DNA of 51,805 bases, taken from assembly GCA_903850425.1 (NCBI GenBank), contig CAINLR010000167.1:1-51805 (forward strand). The letters are read 5' to 3'. The notes below the pieces were generated by a model. It did no database searches. It was not told the origin of the DNA and saw only the letters and a program-made list of their open reading frames with translations. The stretch comes from an uncultured Verrucomicrobia subdivision 3 bacterium. Its GTDB lineage: Bacteria; Verrucomicrobiota; Verrucomicrobiia; Limisphaerales; UBA11358. Both the position numbers and the translations under genes were made by a program. Shown piece after piece: positions 41,693-51,702 of the stretch (position 1 is the first letter of the stretch; every line of letters begins with the position of its first letter).

Positions 41693-41768
41693 GCGAGCGT
41701 AGCTCAGTTGGTAGAGCATCACGTTGCCAACGTGAATGTCGAGGGTTCAAATCCCTTCGCTCGCTCCA
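41693..41768 (+). tRNA. tRNA-Gly (GCC), presumed provirus attachment site
   Basis: A 76-nt cloverleaf including an encoded CCA. The acceptor stem GCGAGCG pairs with CGCTCGC, the anticodon stem TCACG pairs with CGTGA, and the loop TTGCCAA gives anticodon GCC. The T arm GAGGG-TTCAAAT-CCCTT is standard. The sequence changes to compact, virus-like genes directly after the CCA, and a minus-strand viral gene ends inside the tRNA. This is the usual pattern where an integrase uses the tRNA 3' half as attB. Confidence 0.95.
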
Positions 41769-41931
41769 TTTGTCTTTCTAGTTTTTCGGCCCTCTTCTTA
41801 AGCTCGGCGTCCATGTGCGCTTCGAGAATTTCGTTTATGATCTCCGACACGTTTAGGTGTAGCGTCCGCGCCATGTTTAAGCGGTTTTGATTCTTCTCTG
41901 TTGGTCTGAAATTTGCAGGTGCAATAGCCAT
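41719..41931 (-). CDS. Ribbon-helix-helix regulator ending inside tRNA-Gly
   Basis: A 70-aa protein whose central part (FRPTEKNQNRLNMARTLHLN, then VSEIINEILE) has the strand-helix-helix pattern of Arc/CopG-type repressors. The ATG at 41931 has an AAAGGAAA ribosome site, so this is a real gene. Its last 16 codons (ERAKGFEPSTFTLAT and stop) lie in the antisense of the tRNA. Its C-terminus therefore depends on the attachment sequence. It diverges from another small regulator across an operator-like dyad, as expected for a repressor of lysogeny. Confidence 0.65.
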   Translation of the reverse strand: MAIAPANFRPTEKNQNRLNMARTLHLNVSEIINEILEAHMDAELKKRAEKLERQMERAKGFEPSTFTLAT

Positions 41932-45577: not shown

Positions 45578-45706
45578 ATGAAAACTTGGAAATCAAAACG
45601 CCTGGTGTGCCGGCGCACGAAAAATGGCCGGTTCGCGCGCAAGGGTGCCTGCAAAACCTTTCGCCGCACCAAGGTCAAATGCGTCTTCGGAAAACTCTTC
45701 CAATGA
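45578..45706 (+). CDS. 42-aa highly basic protein
   Basis: The peptide begins MKTWKSKRLVCRRTKNGRF and contains 17 Lys/Arg residues and three Cys. It has no membrane segment. The stop overlaps the next ATG by four bases (ATGA), which supports expression. A DNA-condensing or DNA-binding virion peptide is a reasonable guess for a virus with small basic proteins. Confidence 0.55.
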   Translation: MKTWKSKRLVCRRTKNGRFARKGACKTFRRTKVKCVFGKLFQ

Positions 45707-45969
45707 GCGCCACCGGATCACCAGCGGGCAACCCAGCCCCGCCCGCTTCGGCCCTGATCGTCTTGAACGGCAAAACCGAGGCGGAGATGGCCGCGCTGGT
45801 TCCCAAGCTCGTCAAGGCCGTCAAGGTCACAGCCGCGCAGAAGCGGAAAGTCGAGATCAAGGCGGCAGAGCTGGAAAACGAAAATGAACAGCTCAAGGCC
45901 GCCTTGCAGCCGCCGGCCCCGCAGCCGCCAAAGGAAAAATTTTCATGGATGGGATTCACCGCAAGCTAA
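45703..45969 (+). CDS. Coiled-coil protein, 88 aa
   Basis: A Pro/Ala-rich start, then a long helix with heptads (about residues 25-68, including KRKVEIKAAELENENEQLKA), then a Pro/Lys linker and a short hydrophobic end. The ATG at 45703 overlaps the preceding stop, so the longer frame from 45586 is not needed. It may be an assembly or scaffolding factor, which fits its position before the structural genes. Confidence 0.55.
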   Translation: MSATGSPAGNPAPPASALIVLNGKTEAEMAALVPKLVKAVKVTAAQKRKVEIKAAELENENEQLKAALQPPAPQPPKEKFSWMGFTAS

Positions 45970-45973
45970 GGCT

Positions 45974-46681
45974 ATGGCTGACGAACTACCAACGCCGGCA
46001 GCAGGAAGCGGATTTTCAACGCAAATGGAGCAAACGAGCCAAGCAACGGCACTGGGTCAACCGCTGGCTGGCACGGATAGCAAGCTGGCTGCTATCCTCG
46101 AAAAACAAGCCAAAGGCGAAACGCTTTCAGCGCGTGACCGTGGCTATCTCGGCGCTGTCAAGCGGCGCGGAAAACCTAAAACGGTTGCTGCCGCTCCCGC
46201 TCCGAACCCGCTGTTCGAGCTGCCGCAAAATTCTGACAACGAACTTTTCGACCAGACGCCGCCAGCTCAAACTCTGGCTGCGGCTGCGGTCGCTACAGCT
46301 TTTGATTCCGCTCTTTTACACCGCGTTGCTGATTCGATTCTGTCGAGTGTGGATAAGGCAACCAAGATCATCGTCGGCTACGAAGCCAAGCAAGCTGGGC
46401 TAGTGCCGGACACGGTCGAAAAATACAAGGAAGCGGTTTCGCTCCAGCCGGAAAACCGGTCACTGATGGTCGAGAACTCCGACCCCGTTATCATCGGCTT
46501 GGCAAAGCTGTTCGACTGCGCGCCGGATAAACTCGAAACCGTCGTCAAGTCGTCTGGCTTTGTCGGCGGATTCCTGGCTCACGGCTTTGGCGTTTACACG
46601 GCGCTCAAGGATTTGCGCGAGGCGCGCAAGGAACGGCTGTCACAGCCTGCACCCGCGTCAACCGTGACCCCGCAGCCGTGA
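45974..46681 (+). CDS. Unknown virion-region protein, 235 aa
   Basis: I do not recognise the family. The N-terminal 100 residues are Ala/Gln/Pro-rich and disordered in appearance. The C-terminal 120 are helical, with a Gly/Phe-rich amphipathic segment (GFVGGFLAHGFGVYTALK, about residues 196-213) that might touch a membrane. The gene immediately precedes the packaging ATPase, with one base between them. It may be a structural or packaging partner. Confidence 0.5.
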   Translation: MADELPTPAAGSGFSTQMEQTSQATALGQPLAGTDSKLAAILEKQAKGETLSARDRGYLGAVKRRGKPKTVAAAPAPNPLFELPQNSDNELFDQTPPAQTLAAAAVATAFDSALLHRVADSILSSVDKATKIIVGYEAKQAGLVPDTVEKYKEAVSLQPENRSLMVENSDPVIIGLAKLFDCAPDKLETVVKSSGFVGGFLAHGFGVYTALKDLREARKERLSQPAPASTVTPQP

Positions 46682-46682
46682 C

Positions 46683-47318
46683 ATGTCCCTTCAGTATAAA
46701 AATAAAAATCTGGTGCTGCTCGTCGTGGGCTGTTCCGGTTCAGGCAAGTCAACCTACGCGATTCGCTTCCTGCTCAACTGCAAGGCCAGTTGCCGCTTCA
46801 TCTTTGACCCCAGAGGCGAGTATGCGGACAAACTCAAGCGCCGGGCCTGTCGCGTTCCGGCAGAGTTGCACGCAGCCGTCGGCACCGGCTGGGTCATCTA
46901 CGACCCGTCCTACCTGTTTCCCGGAGATCCCAACACGGCGCTGGAAAAGTTCTGTGAGTGGGCTTGGACCGTGTCGGCGAAATTGCCCGGCCAGAAAATC
47001 ATGTTCGTTGACGAGGTGTGGAAACACTGCTCGCCAAACTTCATTCCCAAATCGCTGGCGATGATTCTGATGGACGGACGGAAAAACGGCATTGGCTCGC
47101 TGCTCACCACGCACCGGCCCAACAAGCTCAACGATGCCATTGCCGGCGAGGCCACCGAGCTGGTTTCGTTTTCGCTCAACGGCGGGCTGAAGCTGGAATG
47201 GCTCGCGAAAAATTTTGACGACTTCCCGGTTGACCAGGTGAAGGACTTGCCCCCGCTCCACTTCATCGCGCAGAACCTCGACAGCACGGCGATTTCGCGC
47301 GGCGAACTCAAATTTTAG
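46683..47318 (+). CDS. FtsK/HerA-type genome-packaging ATPase
   Basis: A 211-aa P-loop ATPase. Walker A is GCSGSGKST (residues 16-24), Walker B is KIMFVDE (about 95-101), and the DGRKNGIGSLLTTHRPNK stretch (about 121-138) holds the sensor region and Arg typical of the FtsK/HerA clan. The small size and single domain match the A32-like packaging ATPases of tailless viruses such as PRD1, PM2 and STIV, not large terminases of tailed phages, which also carry a nuclease domain. It sits about 340 bases before the capsid candidate, the order commonly seen in double-jelly-roll viruses. A Zot-like secretion ATPase is the main alternative. Confidence 0.75.
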   Translation: MSLQYKNKNLVLLVVGCSGSGKSTYAIRFLLNCKASCRFIFDPRGEYADKLKRRACRVPAELHAAVGTGWVIYDPSYLFPGDPNTALEKFCEWAWTVSAKLPGQKIMFVDEVWKHCSPNFIPKSLAMILMDGRKNGIGSLLTTHRPNKLNDAIAGEATELVSFSLNGGLKLEWLAKNFDDFPVDQVKDLPPLHFIAQNLDSTAISRGELKF

Positions 47319-47501
47319 TCACACTTCGGCGATCTTCGTAGATTTTCGGCGATTTCACGACTACCCAACTCGCTGGCGTCCGCTAGTGTCGCTCCAGAAA
47401 GTTCGCCGCAGTGTGAACGACGATACGAGCGCGGATGCGCCAACGGTTTTCCGAATCACTGCACAGCGTTCGTCAATCAACCGCCGCAAGGCACCTTCGT
47501 T

Positions 47502-47612
47502 ATGCTCAAAAATCCCATCGTGCAATCTGTCCTCACCATCATCGTCGTTCTCGCCGTGCTGAAAATGGTCGGCAGCAAAATCCCCCTCGTGGGCAAATAC
47601 ATCGCGCTCTAA
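47502..47612 (+). CDS. 36-aa membrane peptide
   Basis: MLKNPIVQSVLTIIVVLAVL followed by KMVGSKIPLVGKYIAL: one hydrophobic helix (about residues 6-21) and a short amphipathic tail. It lies between the ATPase and capsid genes. The 183 bases before it (47319-47501) show no gene. Small one-span proteins of this kind line the internal membrane of PRD1- and PM2-like virions. Confidence 0.55.
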   Translation: MLKNPIVQSVLTIIVVLAVLKMVGSKIPLVGKYIAL

Positions 47613-47661
47613 GTCGCGAGTCAACCTCACCCCGCAACCGCAACCAAGTCCTCCAAAAAAT

Positions 47662-48564
47662 ATGTCCACTAAACGCAGAGTTCTTCTACCGACGATTACC
47701 GGCATCGTGCCGAGTTCGCCCGTAGGCACCGTCGGCACGCTCGACATTCCCATCGGCTCCGGTTTCCGGTTGCACGATCTCCAAATCGTTTACATTGACG
47801 GCGGCGGCGCTCCCACCGATGTCAACGCCATGTTTTCGGACATGGGCATTTACCGCAACGGCACGCCGCAGCGGACGTATTTGTCCTCGGCGGATTTGGA
47901 CCACGCCAACAACATCAACGGCTCGCAGTATGGCCGGCAACAGGTCAACACCGCTGCCGCGATGCGTCAGACGATGACTCACTTCTTCGCCGAACCTTGG
48001 CGCAAAGACAAGGTGGACACCGACGTGCTGGCGTGGAACGTCTGCGCGGAAAACGGCTGGAAAACGCTTCAGGTGAAAATGAAGCTGGCGACGGCGATGC
48101 CGGCGACGGGTTCGATTGTGGCTTATGCCTGGATTGAAGACGTGCCGTCACAGTTGCGCGGCGTGGCGCAGTCCATCAAGAAAGTCTATGCCCAGCAGAT
48201 TCCGGCCAGCGGCTTGACGGTTGACGTGACCACGCTCGACCAGAAGGACGCTTACCAGCTCATCGCGCTGAAGCATCCGACCACGGGCCTGATCACCAAG
48301 GTTTCGCTCAAGCGCAACACCGATCTCATCATGGACCAAGTGGTTCGCGAGGACAATTACGCGGCGCTGATTGGCAAAGGTTTGGTCGCTGCCAACTCGA
48401 CCACGGCCAGCGCCTTCGGTTACGACATCGTGCTCGACGCGGATGATCCGAACAATTCGGCGCTCTACGCCCAAGGGCAATCCATGTGGCTGCAAGTCGG
48501 CTTCAATGTCGCGGCGGCGGGCAACGTGATTGCGCTCATTGAACGCATCGGCCCGTTCGACTAA
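47662..48564 (+). CDS. Candidate major capsid protein (double jelly-roll type)
   Basis: A 300-aa protein rich in predicted beta strands, with no signal peptide, membrane helix or enzymatic motif. Its size lies between PM2 P2 (269 aa) and PRD1 P3 (about 394 aa). Two halves of about 150 residues can be imagined, the second beginning near the VDVTTLDQKDAYQLIALKHP region. Between strands are short turns such as FFAEPWRKDKVDTDVLAWNV. It follows the packaging ATPase and is followed by two stable hairpins, as a highly expressed late gene might be. The ATG has an A-rich leader. The fold itself cannot be proven by eye. Confidence 0.6.
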   Translation: MSTKRRVLLPTITGIVPSSPVGTVGTLDIPIGSGFRLHDLQIVYIDGGGAPTDVNAMFSDMGIYRNGTPQRTYLSSADLDHANNINGSQYGRQQVNTAAAMRQTMTHFFAEPWRKDKVDTDVLAWNVCAENGWKTLQVKMKLATAMPATGSIVAYAWIEDVPSQLRGVAQSIKKVYAQQIPASGLTVDVTTLDQKDAYQLIALKHPTTGLITKVSLKRNTDLIMDQVVREDNYAALIGKGLVAANSTTASAFGYDIVLDADDPNNSALYAQGQSMWLQVGFNVAAAGNVIALIERIGPFD

Positions 48565-48576
48565 GGCTTACAAAAA

Positions 48577-48625
48577 GGGCTTCGGCCCGCACTCCACGCG
48601 CGCCAGTCGGCAACGGCTGGCGCGC
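48577..48625 (+). terminator. Tandem hairpins behind the capsid gene
   Basis: The first is GGGC-TTCG-GCCC (48577-48588), a UUCG tetraloop of exceptional stability. The second has a 9-bp stem (48598-48606 with 48617-48625). A T-rich stretch (48640-48652) comes about 15 bases later and directly abuts the next ATG. They may stabilise the capsid mRNA or reduce read-through. Confidence 0.6.
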
Positions 48626-48652
48626 AATCTCCCAACTCAGTTTTATTTTTTT

Positions 48653-49015
48653 ATGGCTGCAACCGATCAATACGGCAACACGGCGGAAACTCTCGCGGCA
48701 ATCTATGGCGGCAGTGCCAGCGACTACACCGGCGACATGGTTGACGCTCCCTCTCCCACCGTCTCGTCTGGCAATAGCGGCGGCTGGTCTTCCATTTTTG
48801 GTTCACTCCTCAGCGCGGCAGGCTCGGCTTACAGTTCCACTGTGGCCGCCGACGCCTCGAATCAGCGCAGTGCGACCACGCGGCAAGTTGCGGCGCTCAA
48901 CGCCAACGCCGCCAACAACAGCAGCGCAACGCTGATGAAGCTGGTTCCCTGGCTGATTGGCGGCGCAGTGGTGTTGATCATCGGCGCGTTGTTCCTGAAA
49001 CGTAGTCGCGGTTGA
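48653..49015 (+). CDS. Tail-anchored virion membrane protein 1, 120 aa
   Basis: A Gly/Ser/Ala-rich soluble part is followed by one C-terminal membrane helix (WLIGGAVVLIIGALFL, about residues 100-115) and a basic KRSRG end. I chose the ATG at 48653, which is the first after the hairpins and T-tract. Two more genes with the same layout follow. Such proteins would span the internal membrane with the bulk facing the capsid or the DNA. Confidence 0.6.
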   Translation: MAATDQYGNTAETLAAIYGGSASDYTGDMVDAPSPTVSSGNSGGWSSIFGSLLSAAGSAYSSTVAADASNQRSATTRQVAALNANAANNSSATLMKLVPWLIGGAVVLIIGALFLKRSRG

Positions 49016-49022
49016 ACCGGCT

Positions 49023-49337
49023 ATGTATGACACCAGCACAGCCAACCCGATAAACCCGCAAGGGACCGTCGGCGGCGGCAATGTGTTCTACTCCGCGCCG
49101 ATCTTTGGTTATTCCGAAATCAGCGGCGGCGGCAGTTTTGGCAACAACCCGGCCACGACGACGAACAAGGACACGGCGGCACTGGGCGGCGGCGCGGCCT
49201 CTACGGACGTGCCGGCCAAGGCGGACACTGGCACCACGTTTACGGCTTTTCTGGCGGCCAATAAGACGGTGTTGATCATCGGGTCGGCCTGCCTGGTGGG
49301 TCTCCTGGTATTGCTTCGCGTGTTGAAAGGCAAATAG
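49023..49337 (+). CDS. Tail-anchored virion membrane protein 2, 104 aa
   Basis: It has the same design as its neighbour: a Gly/Asn/Thr-rich N-terminal region, then a C-terminal membrane helix (VLIIGSACLVGLLVLLRVL, about residues 83-101) and Lys-Gly-Lys. It starts seven bases after the previous stop. The first 60 residues hold no motif. It may be a structural linker between capsid and membrane. Confidence 0.6.
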   Translation: MYDTSTANPINPQGTVGGGNVFYSAPIFGYSEISGGGSFGNNPATTTNKDTAALGGGAASTDVPAKADTGTTFTAFLAANKTVLIIGSACLVGLLVLLRVLKGK

Positions 49338-49338
49338 C

Positions 49339-49890
49339 ATGATACGTTTTCACCCCCAATTTCGCCGCGTGAGGTTGGACGAAGCCGATGGCTTCATCCT
49401 TCATTCCTCAACCCTCATCCTTTGTTTCCACAAGGGCAACGCCTCCCAAGCGCAGACCAACACCAGCCTGGGCGCGCAGACTGCCGGCGTGGCTGTCAGC
49501 GGCAACGACAACCAGGCAAACAGCGGCAATCAAATCATCATCGGCGACATTTCTGGCAGCGGCCAGTCTGGCCGCAGCAATCGGCCTTGGCGTCCGCAAG
49601 ATGCCGGCAAAGATGGCTCTGCTAAAGCCAGTGCTGCCACGGCCTCGTCCCCCGTAGTCAATGCCACCATTACCAACGGGCTTACGTCTGAGGACGTGAC
49701 CACGGCCATTAGCGCACTGGCGGCGGCCTTCGCTCCCGCTGCCGCCCCGGCCGCCCCGGCGGTCACAGACCCAGTGAACACTGAACCAGTGAGCACGGGC
49801 TTCAATTTCACCCTGCTGCAAACGGCGGCCGCAGTTGTGACCATCGGCGGCGCGGTCTATCTGTTTGCAGCTCGAAAGAAAAAAGTATGA
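49339..49890 (+). CDS. Tail-anchored virion membrane protein 3, 183 aa
   Basis: After an N-terminal segment of about 35 residues of unlike composition comes a Gly/Ser/Asn-rich stretch (SLGAQTAGVAVSGNDNQANS), an Ala/Pro linker and a C-terminal membrane helix (TAAAVVTIGGAVYLFAA, about residues 162-178) ending RKKKV. The start at 49339 is one base after the previous stop. The stop overlaps the next ATG by four bases. Confidence 0.58.
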   Translation: MIRFHPQFRRVRLDEADGFILHSSTLILCFHKGNASQAQTNTSLGAQTAGVAVSGNDNQANSGNQIIIGDISGSGQSGRSNRPWRPQDAGKDGSAKASAATASSPVVNATITNGLTSEDVTTAISALAAAFAPAAAPAAPAVTDPVNTEPVSTGFNFTLLQTAAAVVTIGGAVYLFAARKKKV

Positions 49891-50504
49891 TCCTCGACTC
49901 TACCTTTACCATCCCGGCGGGCGGCGCGAACATGCAAGTAACGGCGGGAAAATATCTGTCCGTCAAAAGTTGCACGCTGCCGATCAAGGCGAGTTTCAAC
50001 GGCGGCCCGCTCGAACCAACGCAAGCCGGCCAAGTGACCGACAAAAGCGCGCAGCCGTTTAGCTACGTCAATTTCGTCAATCCGAACGCCATGGCCGTCA
50101 CGCTCACTTGTTTTATTGGCGATCAGCCTGTGACGTATCAGCCGTCGGACAATTCAGCCGCGAACGCGCAGACTTATTGCCTGGGCAATCTGGGCATTGC
50201 GAGCGGCGCGGCGGCGAACGGCGGCTTGCCCGCGTGTGACGCGACCGGCCTGCTGCAAATCACCGACGGCATGGCGCTGGTGATTCCCAGCACCAACAAC
50301 GGCCACCGTCGCCAGTCCATCACGTTTAGCATGTCGCCGACAACTCCCAAGCCGCTGAATGTCCTGGACGCGAACGGCAACAACTACATGACGATCTATG
50401 CCTCGCAGCAAATCGAGATTGTCAGCGATTCCGTTTTCCAACTCTCCGGCGCGCTGGGCATCGCCTCTGTAACCGTCGGCCAAATCTTTCTCTCCAGCAA
50501 CTGA
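49887..50504 (+). CDS. Beta-rich minor capsid/penton candidate, 205 aa
   Basis: No enzymatic motif, signal peptide or membrane segment is visible. The sequence alternates short strands and turns (for example FSYVNFVNPNAMAVTLTCF) in the manner of jelly-roll proteins. It lies between the membrane-anchored proteins and the spike candidate and is coupled to both sides by overlaps. A penton base or second capsid protein is plausible. The family is not recognised. Confidence 0.5.
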   Translation: MILDSTFTIPAGGANMQVTAGKYLSVKSCTLPIKASFNGGPLEPTQAGQVTDKSAQPFSYVNFVNPNAMAVTLTCFIGDQPVTYQPSDNSAANAQTYCLGNLGIASGAAANGGLPACDATGLLQITDGMALVIPSTNNGHRRQSITFSMSPTTPKPLNVLDANGNNYMTIYASQQIEIVSDSVFQLSGALGIASVTVGQIFLSSN

Positions 50505-50674
50505 TGCGCAAGCGCACCAAAAATTTGCAGTTGATTCCCACGCCGAACCGAGGCGCAACGAGCAGTTCCGGCGGCACTGGGCCCGGTTTGACGCCGCACA
50601 ACATCCGCATCTTGACCGAAGATGCCAACGCCGTCGTGACCGACGAAGACGGCAATCCGGTCATCACCCAATGA
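50504..50674 (+). CDS. 56-aa viral protein
   Basis: MRKRTKNLQLIPTPNRGATS followed by a Ser/Gly linker and an acidic end (ILTEDANAVVTDEDGN). Its ATG overlaps the preceding stop (TGATG), and its stop overlaps the next ATG by four bases. These overlaps are the main support. It may link capsid vertex and spike. Confidence 0.55.
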   Translation: MRKRTKNLQLIPTPNRGATSSSGGTGPGLTPHNIRILTEDANAVVTDEDGNPVITQ

Positions 50675-51702
50675 ATAAAATTCTCCTATCGTGTTTGCTG
50701 GTCGGAGCAACCCTCACCTCCACCGCGCAGCCGACGAACATCAAAGTCTCCGCCATGTCCCCGGCGTCCGTCCTGGACGGCACCGAAAAAATCATGGTCA
50801 CACAGTCCGGCGGCAGCAAGGCCGCGACCGTGTCACAGATTGCGACCAACGCCCGCGCGCAGTTCCTTGGCTGGAATGTCGCCGTGTTTGGCGACAGCAT
50901 CGCCGCCAAAGAAAACTCTGTCGTTGGCACGAATGTTTGCTGGCCTTATCCACTCACAAACCAGCCCGCGCTTTTTGGAACGACGCTTTACAACTACGCG
51001 GCCAGCGGCCAGGGCATCGCCTACGCGATCAGCGCCATTCCCGGCGCAATGGCGACGTTGCTACCGCGCTTTAGTGGCAAGCATCTGGCCGTCATCATCG
51101 AAGTCGGCGCGAACGACTATCCTTCGTTCACCAACATCGCCGGGGCCAATGCCTACGCCGCCCAGCTTGACGGCATCGCCTACAACCTCCACACCAACGG
51201 CGTGGATAAGGTTTACGCCTGCACAGTGATGCTTCGTAGTAACGCGGTGAATTATTTGGTGATGCTGGGCAACTACCAGCTAAACCGGCTGATTTTGAAC
51301 TCTACTAACTTTGACGGCGTTGCTGATTTTGCCTCGGCCTTTCCTGACCCGGCCAGCGCGGTAGATTTTCAAGACGGATTACATTTGAACATCGCGGCCA
51401 GCCGGCGCGCAGCGATGTTGGTTGCCTCCACAATGGCCGGTCACGCCAGCGCCCCCGCCGCGTTTCAAAGTCCGTTCAACACGCAAATCTATGGCGGCAG
51501 TGTCACGGCGGACCCGTTGACCGGCGGCAACTTTACGCTGACGGGCAACAACATCAACCTCGGCCCCGGCAACAACGTCATCAGTTCGGACGGCTCAAAT
51601 CTGATTTTGAACCCGCCGACAGCGGGCGGCATTAACATCTTCAATCTGAACCGGGGCGCAGGCATACCTGAGCCCGCCGTATCCGGCCTGGAGTGTGGCT
51701 GA
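50671..51702 (+). CDS. SGNH/GDSL-family hydrolase, candidate receptor-binding spike
   Basis: A 343-aa protein. The SGNH catalytic blocks are visible: GDSIAAKEN with the nucleophilic Ser (about residues 73-81), a Gly in NYAASGQG, VGANDYP with the Asn, and DGLHLN with the Asp-His pair near residue 240. Residues 1-20 look like a signal peptide (MNKILLSCLLVGATLTSTAQ). The C-terminal 90 residues are Gly/Asn-rich and repetitive, like phage fibre shafts. In a virus this would suit an esterase that deacetylates surface glycans during entry. A secretion signal on a virion protein is unusual. Confidence 0.7.
   Translation: MNKILLSCLLVGATLTSTAQPTNIKVSAMSPASVLDGTEKIMVTQSGGSKAATVSQIATNARAQFLGWNVAVFGDSIAAKENSVVGTNVCWPYPLTNQPALFGTTLYNYAASGQGIAYAISAIPGAMATLLPRFSGKHLAVIIEVGANDYPSFTNIAGANAYAAQLDGIAYNLHTNGVDKVYACTVMLRSNAVNYLVMLGNYQLNRLILNSTNFDGVADFASAFPDPASAVDFQDGLHLNIAASRRAAMLVASTMAGHASAPAAFQSPFNTQIYGGSVTADPLTGGNFTLTGNNINLGPGNNVISSDGSNLILNPPTAGGINIFNLNRGAGIPEPAVSGLECG

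Follow-up and report, generated by a model that had tools for sequence, protein, structure and literature searches.

The window, the whole 51,805-nucleotide stretch of DNA that was analysed, contains a PM2-type morphogenesis module in which genes for a packaging ATPase, a P7-like peptide, a capsid protein, small membrane proteins, a penton-like protein, and a GDSL protein follow one another. The contig ends inside the element, so that neither an integrase nor a right end is visible in the window. The features, all on the plus strand, are as follows.

41693..41768, + strand: tRNA-Gly, a possible left integration site (tRNA detected; Rfam)
45586..45969, + strand: small ORF with matches in related proviruses (phmmer: L016, L017, L019, L015, and L014, E 3e-8 to 0.0015)
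45884..46681, + strand: ORF directly upstream of the ATPase gene in the place of PM2 ORF h, to which it is likened by position (homologue in L015, E 3e-15)
46683..47318, + strand: A32/FtsK-HerA-type genome packaging ATPase, 211 aa (PHROG 2666, profile match to STIV2 B204, tblastn)
47502..47612, + strand: single-pass membrane peptide of 36 aa at the PM2 P7 position (position, size, hydropathy)
47662..48564, + strand: major capsid protein gene (profile matches to NO16 and PM2, Pfam P2_N/P2_C in relatives, AlphaFold2 model and fold matches, purifying selection)
48598..48625, + strand: RNA hairpin between the capsid gene and the next gene (12-bp stem, 4-nt loop, 92% complementary)
48653..49015, + strand: small protein with a C-terminal membrane segment in a P3-like position (hydropathy 2.52; ATG at 48653)
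49023..49337, + strand: small protein with a C-terminal membrane segment (hydropathy 2.66; homologue in a second provirus, E 7e-47)
49339..49890, + strand: protein at the PM2 gp-j position, with a hydrophobic segment at its C-terminus (position and layout only)
49887..50504, + strand: beta-rich 205-aa protein, candidate penton or spike base (hhalign, model)
50671..51702, + strand: GDSL-esterase-domain protein in the spike or receptor-binding position (Pfam Lipase_GDSL, E 3e-7)

The ORF at 47662-48564 starts with ATG and encodes 300 aa; the earlier note on this DNA had proposed it as a divergent double-jelly-roll (DJR) major capsid protein. A second copy lies on contig C154 of the same genome, with a product 87% identical to the window protein. 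The two genes show 73 synonymous and 40 nonsynonymous codon differences, with 36, 17, and 97 differences at the first, second, and third codon positions, respectively. With dN at 0.090 and dS at 0.627 (dN/dS 0.14), the pair is under purifying selection, and the ORF is therefore a conserved coding gene. Used alone as a query, the window protein matches Pfam family P2_C (PM2 coat protein P2, C-terminal domain) over residues 172-297 at E 1.1e-4, with a score of 22.5 bits that lies below the cut-off of 25; there was no P2_N match, no PHROG family, no tblastn match among 50,697 phage records, and no significant phmmer match among PDB sequences, where two matches to adenylosuccinate synthetase (E 0.19 and 0.35) were taken as chance. 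Peptide-pattern searches of viral contigs and genome contigs with this protein gained nothing, and a DNA-level search of phages with positions 46500-50600 gave no match.

The affiliation of the protein emerges when relatives are included. Profile A1, built from seven relatives, matches PDB entry 9t9v, "Double jelly roll capsid protein," at E 1.2e-15 over profile positions 2-286 of 292, and 9t9v is, by full-length match, the capsid protein of Vibrio phage NO16. PM2 P2 is matched at a whole-sequence E of 1.8e-5, the best single stretch reaching only 0.0023, and the remaining PDB matches, at 0.17 and 0.41, are to a transposase and chain MCPv4 of 8h2i (PBCV-1 capsid). Among the seven members, six have Pfam P2_C and five P2_N (best E 9e-15), and four belong to PHROG 8536, "major head protein." An hhalign comparison of A1 with an alignment of the PM2, NO16, and PG21 capsid proteins gave 99.5% (E 1.7e-22).

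Relatives of the window capsid are sparse. They were found in 6 of 293 genomes of the order by protein search (the window's own genome counted), in 6 of 384 genomes of a class draw with A1, and in 3 of 288 genomes of a phylum draw with a 16-row capsid profile; the draws overlap and the counts are not summed. In GTDB contigs, 17 stretches matched the A1 pattern and five loci were confirmed, all labelled as Verrucomicrobiota or a group within it, and these are, to judge by length and range, the same contigs as five from the order-level set. In viral contigs, 61 stretches matched the pattern and none was confirmed; the L014 and L017 capsid proteins found no relative there, and the capsid protein of phage 1.249.A found its own genome only. 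The L031 capsid protein matched no phage record. Pfam family PF25513, searched across 196 genomes of the order, gave five genomes at E ≤0.01, of which one exceeds the family cut-off, whereas the C154 copy escaped this family; two of the five were dropped, L011 because the match sits in unrelated open frames and L012 because only 13- and 33-residue scraps match the capsid protein. Leaving aside the second copy, the A1 relatives are 27-30% identical to the window protein. The motif AEPWRK (window residues 110-115) is invariant across all seven, is changed in L029 and L030, and is missing from L031 and the cultured phages.

The predicted structure points to the same protein type. An AlphaFold2 model made from six sequences is of moderate confidence (pLDDT 66.8, pTM 0.67), and its top Foldseek match in the PDB is PM2 P2 (E 7.1e-12), with DJR capsid proteins of PBCV-1, ASFV, an iridovirus, mavirus, faustovirus, PR772, and PRD1 making up the rest of the best 50 rows. 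With VIA-align, the best match is again PM2 P2 (2vvf; Z 20.4, 239 residues, 2.9 Å, model residues 3-300), at 14% identity in the structural alignment, and further Z scores are 18.0 for STIV, 17.1 for PRD1, 13.1 for phiCjT23, and 12.2 for FLiP; adenovirus hexon and 9t9v are absent among the best 50 VIA-align rows, from which we conclude nothing. The top named BFVD matches are capsid proteins of DJR viruses (an asfa-like virus, an ascovirus, and phage Wip1), and its lower rows include unrelated proteins (BTB and picornavirus-type capsid domains) with low TM-scores. Both halves of the model contain a single clear helix (76-85 and 229-238), and residues 110-133, including the entire AEPWRK motif, are poorly modelled (pLDDT <50). 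The fold search thus came out as the earlier note had anticipated, and nothing helical, single-domain enzymatic, or tail-fibre-like appeared in its place. The two adjacent eight-stranded barrels it looked for are borne out as barrels by the whole-length match to PM2 P2 rather than by a count of eight strands in each, as DSSP fuses several strands in the model.

In a tree of 16 capsid proteins, PM2, NO16, PG21, D526, and two autolykiviruses form a clade (100/99) with the window pair outside it, on a long branch (1.29) beside sequences of its own phylum. Support is weak (64/63) for the branch joining the window to the Verrucomicrobiota rows; G479, a row from this phylum, lies on its other side, and two rows are very long. 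The window capsid is a long, deep branch of the PM2 group (order Vinavirales), of the P2/NO16 type. It had been suggested that the protein belongs to no known capsid subfamily and may define a new group; the depth of the branch agrees with this in part, but the protein joins the P2/NO16 type (P2_N, P2_C) once relatives are added.

Several known systems can be compared with the locus. Vibrio phage NO16 shares the near full-length profile match and the order ATPase, small peptide, capsid, and small proteins; its capsid protein has 265 aa compared to 300 aa in the window protein, for which the alignment shows insertions within the first half and where the two halves join, and its host is gammaproteobacterial. 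Pseudoalteromonas phage PM2 (Corticoviridae) shares the fold, the P2_N/P2_C family, and the gene order, including a peptide in the P7 position. It differs in capsid sequence, and also in that the penton-like and spike functions of the window element apparently lie on separate genes; neither a PM2-type replication protein nor P5 was seen among the window ORFs scanned. The Autolykiviridae (Vibrio phages 1.249.A and 1.044.O) have a DJR capsid but are separated from the window by the capsid tree, and have an annotated type B DNA polymerase and a putative terminal protein that were not seen in the window. By their description in PMC9502842, the Vinavirales clade A proviruses of Verrucomicrobia also resemble the locus: they come from its host phylum, are likewise proviruses, and apparently have no known lysins. 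Jorvik phage of Rhodobacter capsulatus is described in PMC10589892 as a temperate member of Vinavirales with equivalent structural synteny, though with an alphaproteobacterial host. The window capsid is thus a divergent addition to a known protein type, and an association with Verrucomicrobia hosts is already in print: a 2022 paper (PMC9502842) reported such proviruses, in which some regulators and any known lysin are lacking. The PM2 group is described in PMC5894146, the main text of which does not contain the word Verrucomicrobia. In a literature search by title and start of abstract, with most subscription journals outside its coverage, no paper besides PMC9502842 ties DJR or PM2-type viruses to Verrucomicrobia.

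The genes upstream of the capsid gene conform to this affiliation. The P-loop ATPase ORF (46683-47318) precedes the capsid ORF, as the earlier note had it, with 343 nt between them, and its product matches PHROG 2666, "terminase large subunit," at E 3e-17. An ATPase profile of 13 rows (A5), five of them cultured-phage ATPases, matches the STIV2 packaging NTPase B204 at E 5.4e-14 over positions 9-202 of 209, and ranks several HerA proteins, matched in parts, above it (best 7.3e-18). A tblastn search with the window ATPase matched 52 phage records, 40 of them from Vibrio, 4 each from Thermus and Haloarcula, and 2 each from Sulfolobus and Streptococcus. The top record (E 2e-4) is a Vinavirales phage with the order ATPase, small ORF, and P2-type capsid. 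The ATPase and capsid genes are on the same strand in the window, L015, L019, L029, L030, and the Vibrio phages, and on opposite strands in L014, L016, and L017. The likeness of the peptide at 47502-47612 to P7 is one of position, length, and hydropathy, which for so short a peptide does not prove homology; a small gene in a P7-like place has been described across Vinavirales (PMC9502842). An ATG-started peptide of this kind is encoded no more than 280 nt ahead of the capsid gene at 9 of 10 Verrucomicrobiota-side loci (window counted; L031 is the one where it was not found), compared to 1.2% of 4000 background pieces taken from bacterial DNA in the window, by a criterion fixed after a first look at the loci.

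Further to the left, the tRNA-Gly gene at 41693-41768 is the possible left integration site and the only RNA found by an Rfam scan. A search for attachment sites gave no second tRNA-Gly end except an 80% match over 56 bases, which we take to be probably another tRNA gene. A minus-strand ORF of 70 aa (41719-41931) terminates within the tRNA-Gly gene, and genes at integration sites often end inside a tRNA gene; its Pfam matches are all below cut-off, the best being a galacturonosyltransferase domain (E 7.5e-4), with CcdA antitoxin at 0.013.

Downstream, the earlier note's stable hairpins are present. The hairpin at 48598-48625 starts 33 nt past the capsid stop codon and is preceded by a smaller one of 4 bp; the 76-nt stretch holding both folds at -35 kcal/mol (z -4.31), and none of 200 shuffles folds as well. 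The second capsid copy has two hairpins at the same place, and the larger one differs in its inner stem. No promoter was found, and terminator-like sites are not above shuffles, so we do not claim the hairpin as a terminator. Its retention with changed stem bases, in the two sequences compared, suggests that it may set relative expression.

Three ORFs with hydrophobic segments follow, consistent with the position before membrane proteins that had been noted, the third having a weak segment (hydropathy 1.75). The first (48653-49015), for which a longer frame from 48530 begins with TTG, has weak matches (E 0.0016 and 0.0036) to ORFs at the same position in L018 and L016. For the second (49023-49337), no homologue was found at the compared loci beyond the second provirus. 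Homology of the third (49339-49890) to gp-j is unsupported, an hhalign comparison with gp-j proteins giving a nonsignificant 9%. The 49887-50504 product aligns with the same-position proteins of NO16, PG21, 1.249.A, and D526, PM2 P1 excluded, at 88.5% (hhalign, E 2.7e-6, 87 columns). In its model (pLDDT 59.4, pTM 0.40), residues 1-80 match HCIV-1 chain b (Z 8.3) and PM2 P1 residues 1-84 (Z 6.7), with unrelated folds at similar Z, and the penton assignment is suggestive only.

The GDSL-domain protein at 50671-51702 lies directly behind the penton-position gene, the same place as the GDSL_2 protein of phage 1.249.A. Spike-position proteins of the window, L019 (14615-15502), L016 (13490-15643), and L018 (3336-5960) share an N-terminus and a short conserved stretch. 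By eye rather than by a prediction tool, this N-terminus looks like a Sec signal peptide in these four of five proviruses; the fifth, L017 (13462-14826), starts without it, as do PM2 P1 and the 1.249.A spike-position protein. The domains that follow are a GDSL esterase in the window and L018 and an alpha-galactosidase in L016 (Melibiase_2, E 1.6e-17), with none found in L019. The window GDSL domain (residues 64-331) is 53% identical to the product of a gene elsewhere in the same genome (G000:C165:62761-63564), and this likeness suggests exchange between a host gene and the provirus. In 19 kb around that gene, nothing matched the capsid protein, the P7-like peptide, the membrane proteins, or the penton-like protein, which rules the place out as a provirus of this kind; one 672-aa ORF there has a weak ATPase-profile match (E 3.4e-5).

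The second provirus, on contig C154, holds the same morphogenesis module and appears to hold most of the element, with an integrase at its far end. DNA similarity to the window (80%) is limited to window positions 47629-49750, the two ATPases are 35% identical, and the replication regions differ, C154 having a DUF5906 protein of which none was found in the window. Because the capsid segments are alike and the ATPases and replication regions are different, the capsid segment has probably been exchanged between otherwise different elements, to judge from this sequence comparison. Contig C154 ends in a repeat of about 140 bases (G000:C154:34599-34775) that occurs at 25 places in the genome, its own counted, and lies within 2 bases of a contig end in all 20 places where this was checked. 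It resembles a high-copy insertion element at which the assembly breaks off. The integrase frame takes its first ~31 codons from the repeat, suggesting insertion at the start of the integrase gene.

Profile, fold, and gene order together strongly support the identification of the capsid protein, and we regard it as very likely (a probability of about 0.95) that 47662-48564 is the major capsid gene of a PM2-group (Vinavirales) provirus, tailless and probably with a membrane, integrated in the genome of a member of Verrucomicrobiota. Whether the provirus is active is a separate matter, as a decaying remnant would carry a true capsid gene by descent and yet make no particles. No known lysin or integrase was seen in the window, the integrase start of the second provirus is interrupted by the 25-place repeat, and inactivation of Verrucomicrobia-associated members has been raised in PMC9502842. 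More widely, no known lysin was found by Pfam among the scanned ORFs (selected from the window, the second provirus, and three relatives), in which the lysis genes are only holin-like. Nonetheless, the described structural ORFs are open, the capsid pair is under purifying selection, and the right end is missing because the contig ends; we consider decay a possibility to be taken seriously, albeit an unlikely one. Holin-like proteins occur in the lysis position of L018 (6513-7007) and L019 (17059-17685), with Phage_holin_10 matches at E 1.1e-12 and, below the cut-off, 8e-4.

A cellular DJR protein of the DUF2961 or glycoside hydrolase 172 (GH172) type, sharing only its fold with capsid proteins, is very improbable. 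Such structures are among the VIA-align matches listed (DUF2961 Z 10.8, the highest of the cellular DJR proteins listed, and GH172 Z 10.7), and proteins of this type have been reported from Verrucomicrobia (PMC8812541), but these scores compare with 20.4 for PM2 P2 and 17.1 for PRD1, the significant profile matches are to capsid proteins and their families with no hydrolase among the matches listed, and the gene sits within a module of packaging ATPase and membrane protein genes. There is next to no chance that this beta-rich protein, one relative of which has a weak PHROG match to a tail fibre family (0.36), is a receptor-binding or tail-fibre-like protein of a tailed phage, given the whole-length DJR fold match, the DJR profile matches, the DJR-type neighbours, and the lack of any tail, portal, or HK97 gene among 10 window ORFs scanned with PHROGs and 20 with Pfam, even though PHROG 2666, matched by the ATPase, is named for a terminase large subunit.

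For the PM2-group provirus that we favour, virion assembly can be sketched by analogy with PM2. The capsid chain would fold into two adjacent jelly rolls and form trimers with a pseudo-hexagonal outline, which would tile an icosahedral shell; the membrane vesicle inside it would be held by the small membrane proteins from the neighbouring genes. The upstream ATPase would package the genome, the penton-like protein would close the vertices, and the GDSL-domain protein at the spike could recognise or trim the cell surface. The hairpin 3' of the capsid gene probably adjusts how much capsid mRNA there is in comparison with the downstream genes.

A broader and rather doubtful proposal is that these proviruses constitute a Verrucomicrobiota-specific, family-level lineage of tailless membrane phages in which the vertex protein joins an enzyme that can be exchanged (esterase, alpha-galactosidase, or other) to a conserved N-terminus that serves Sec export or anchoring in the viral or host membrane. 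If so, the spike would be put in place from the periplasm or the membrane, in contrast to the PM2 spike, which starts without such a signal, and in at least one case its enzyme domain would be related to a gene elsewhere in the host chromosome. The capsid itself adds to the sequence diversity of PM2-type capsid proteins a branch out of reach of single-sequence searches, and a seven-member profile finds such proviruses in Verrucomicrobiota. With the second provirus, it becomes possible to test the question raised in 2022, as to whether the Verrucomicrobia-associated members are dead or use a lysin of an unknown kind.
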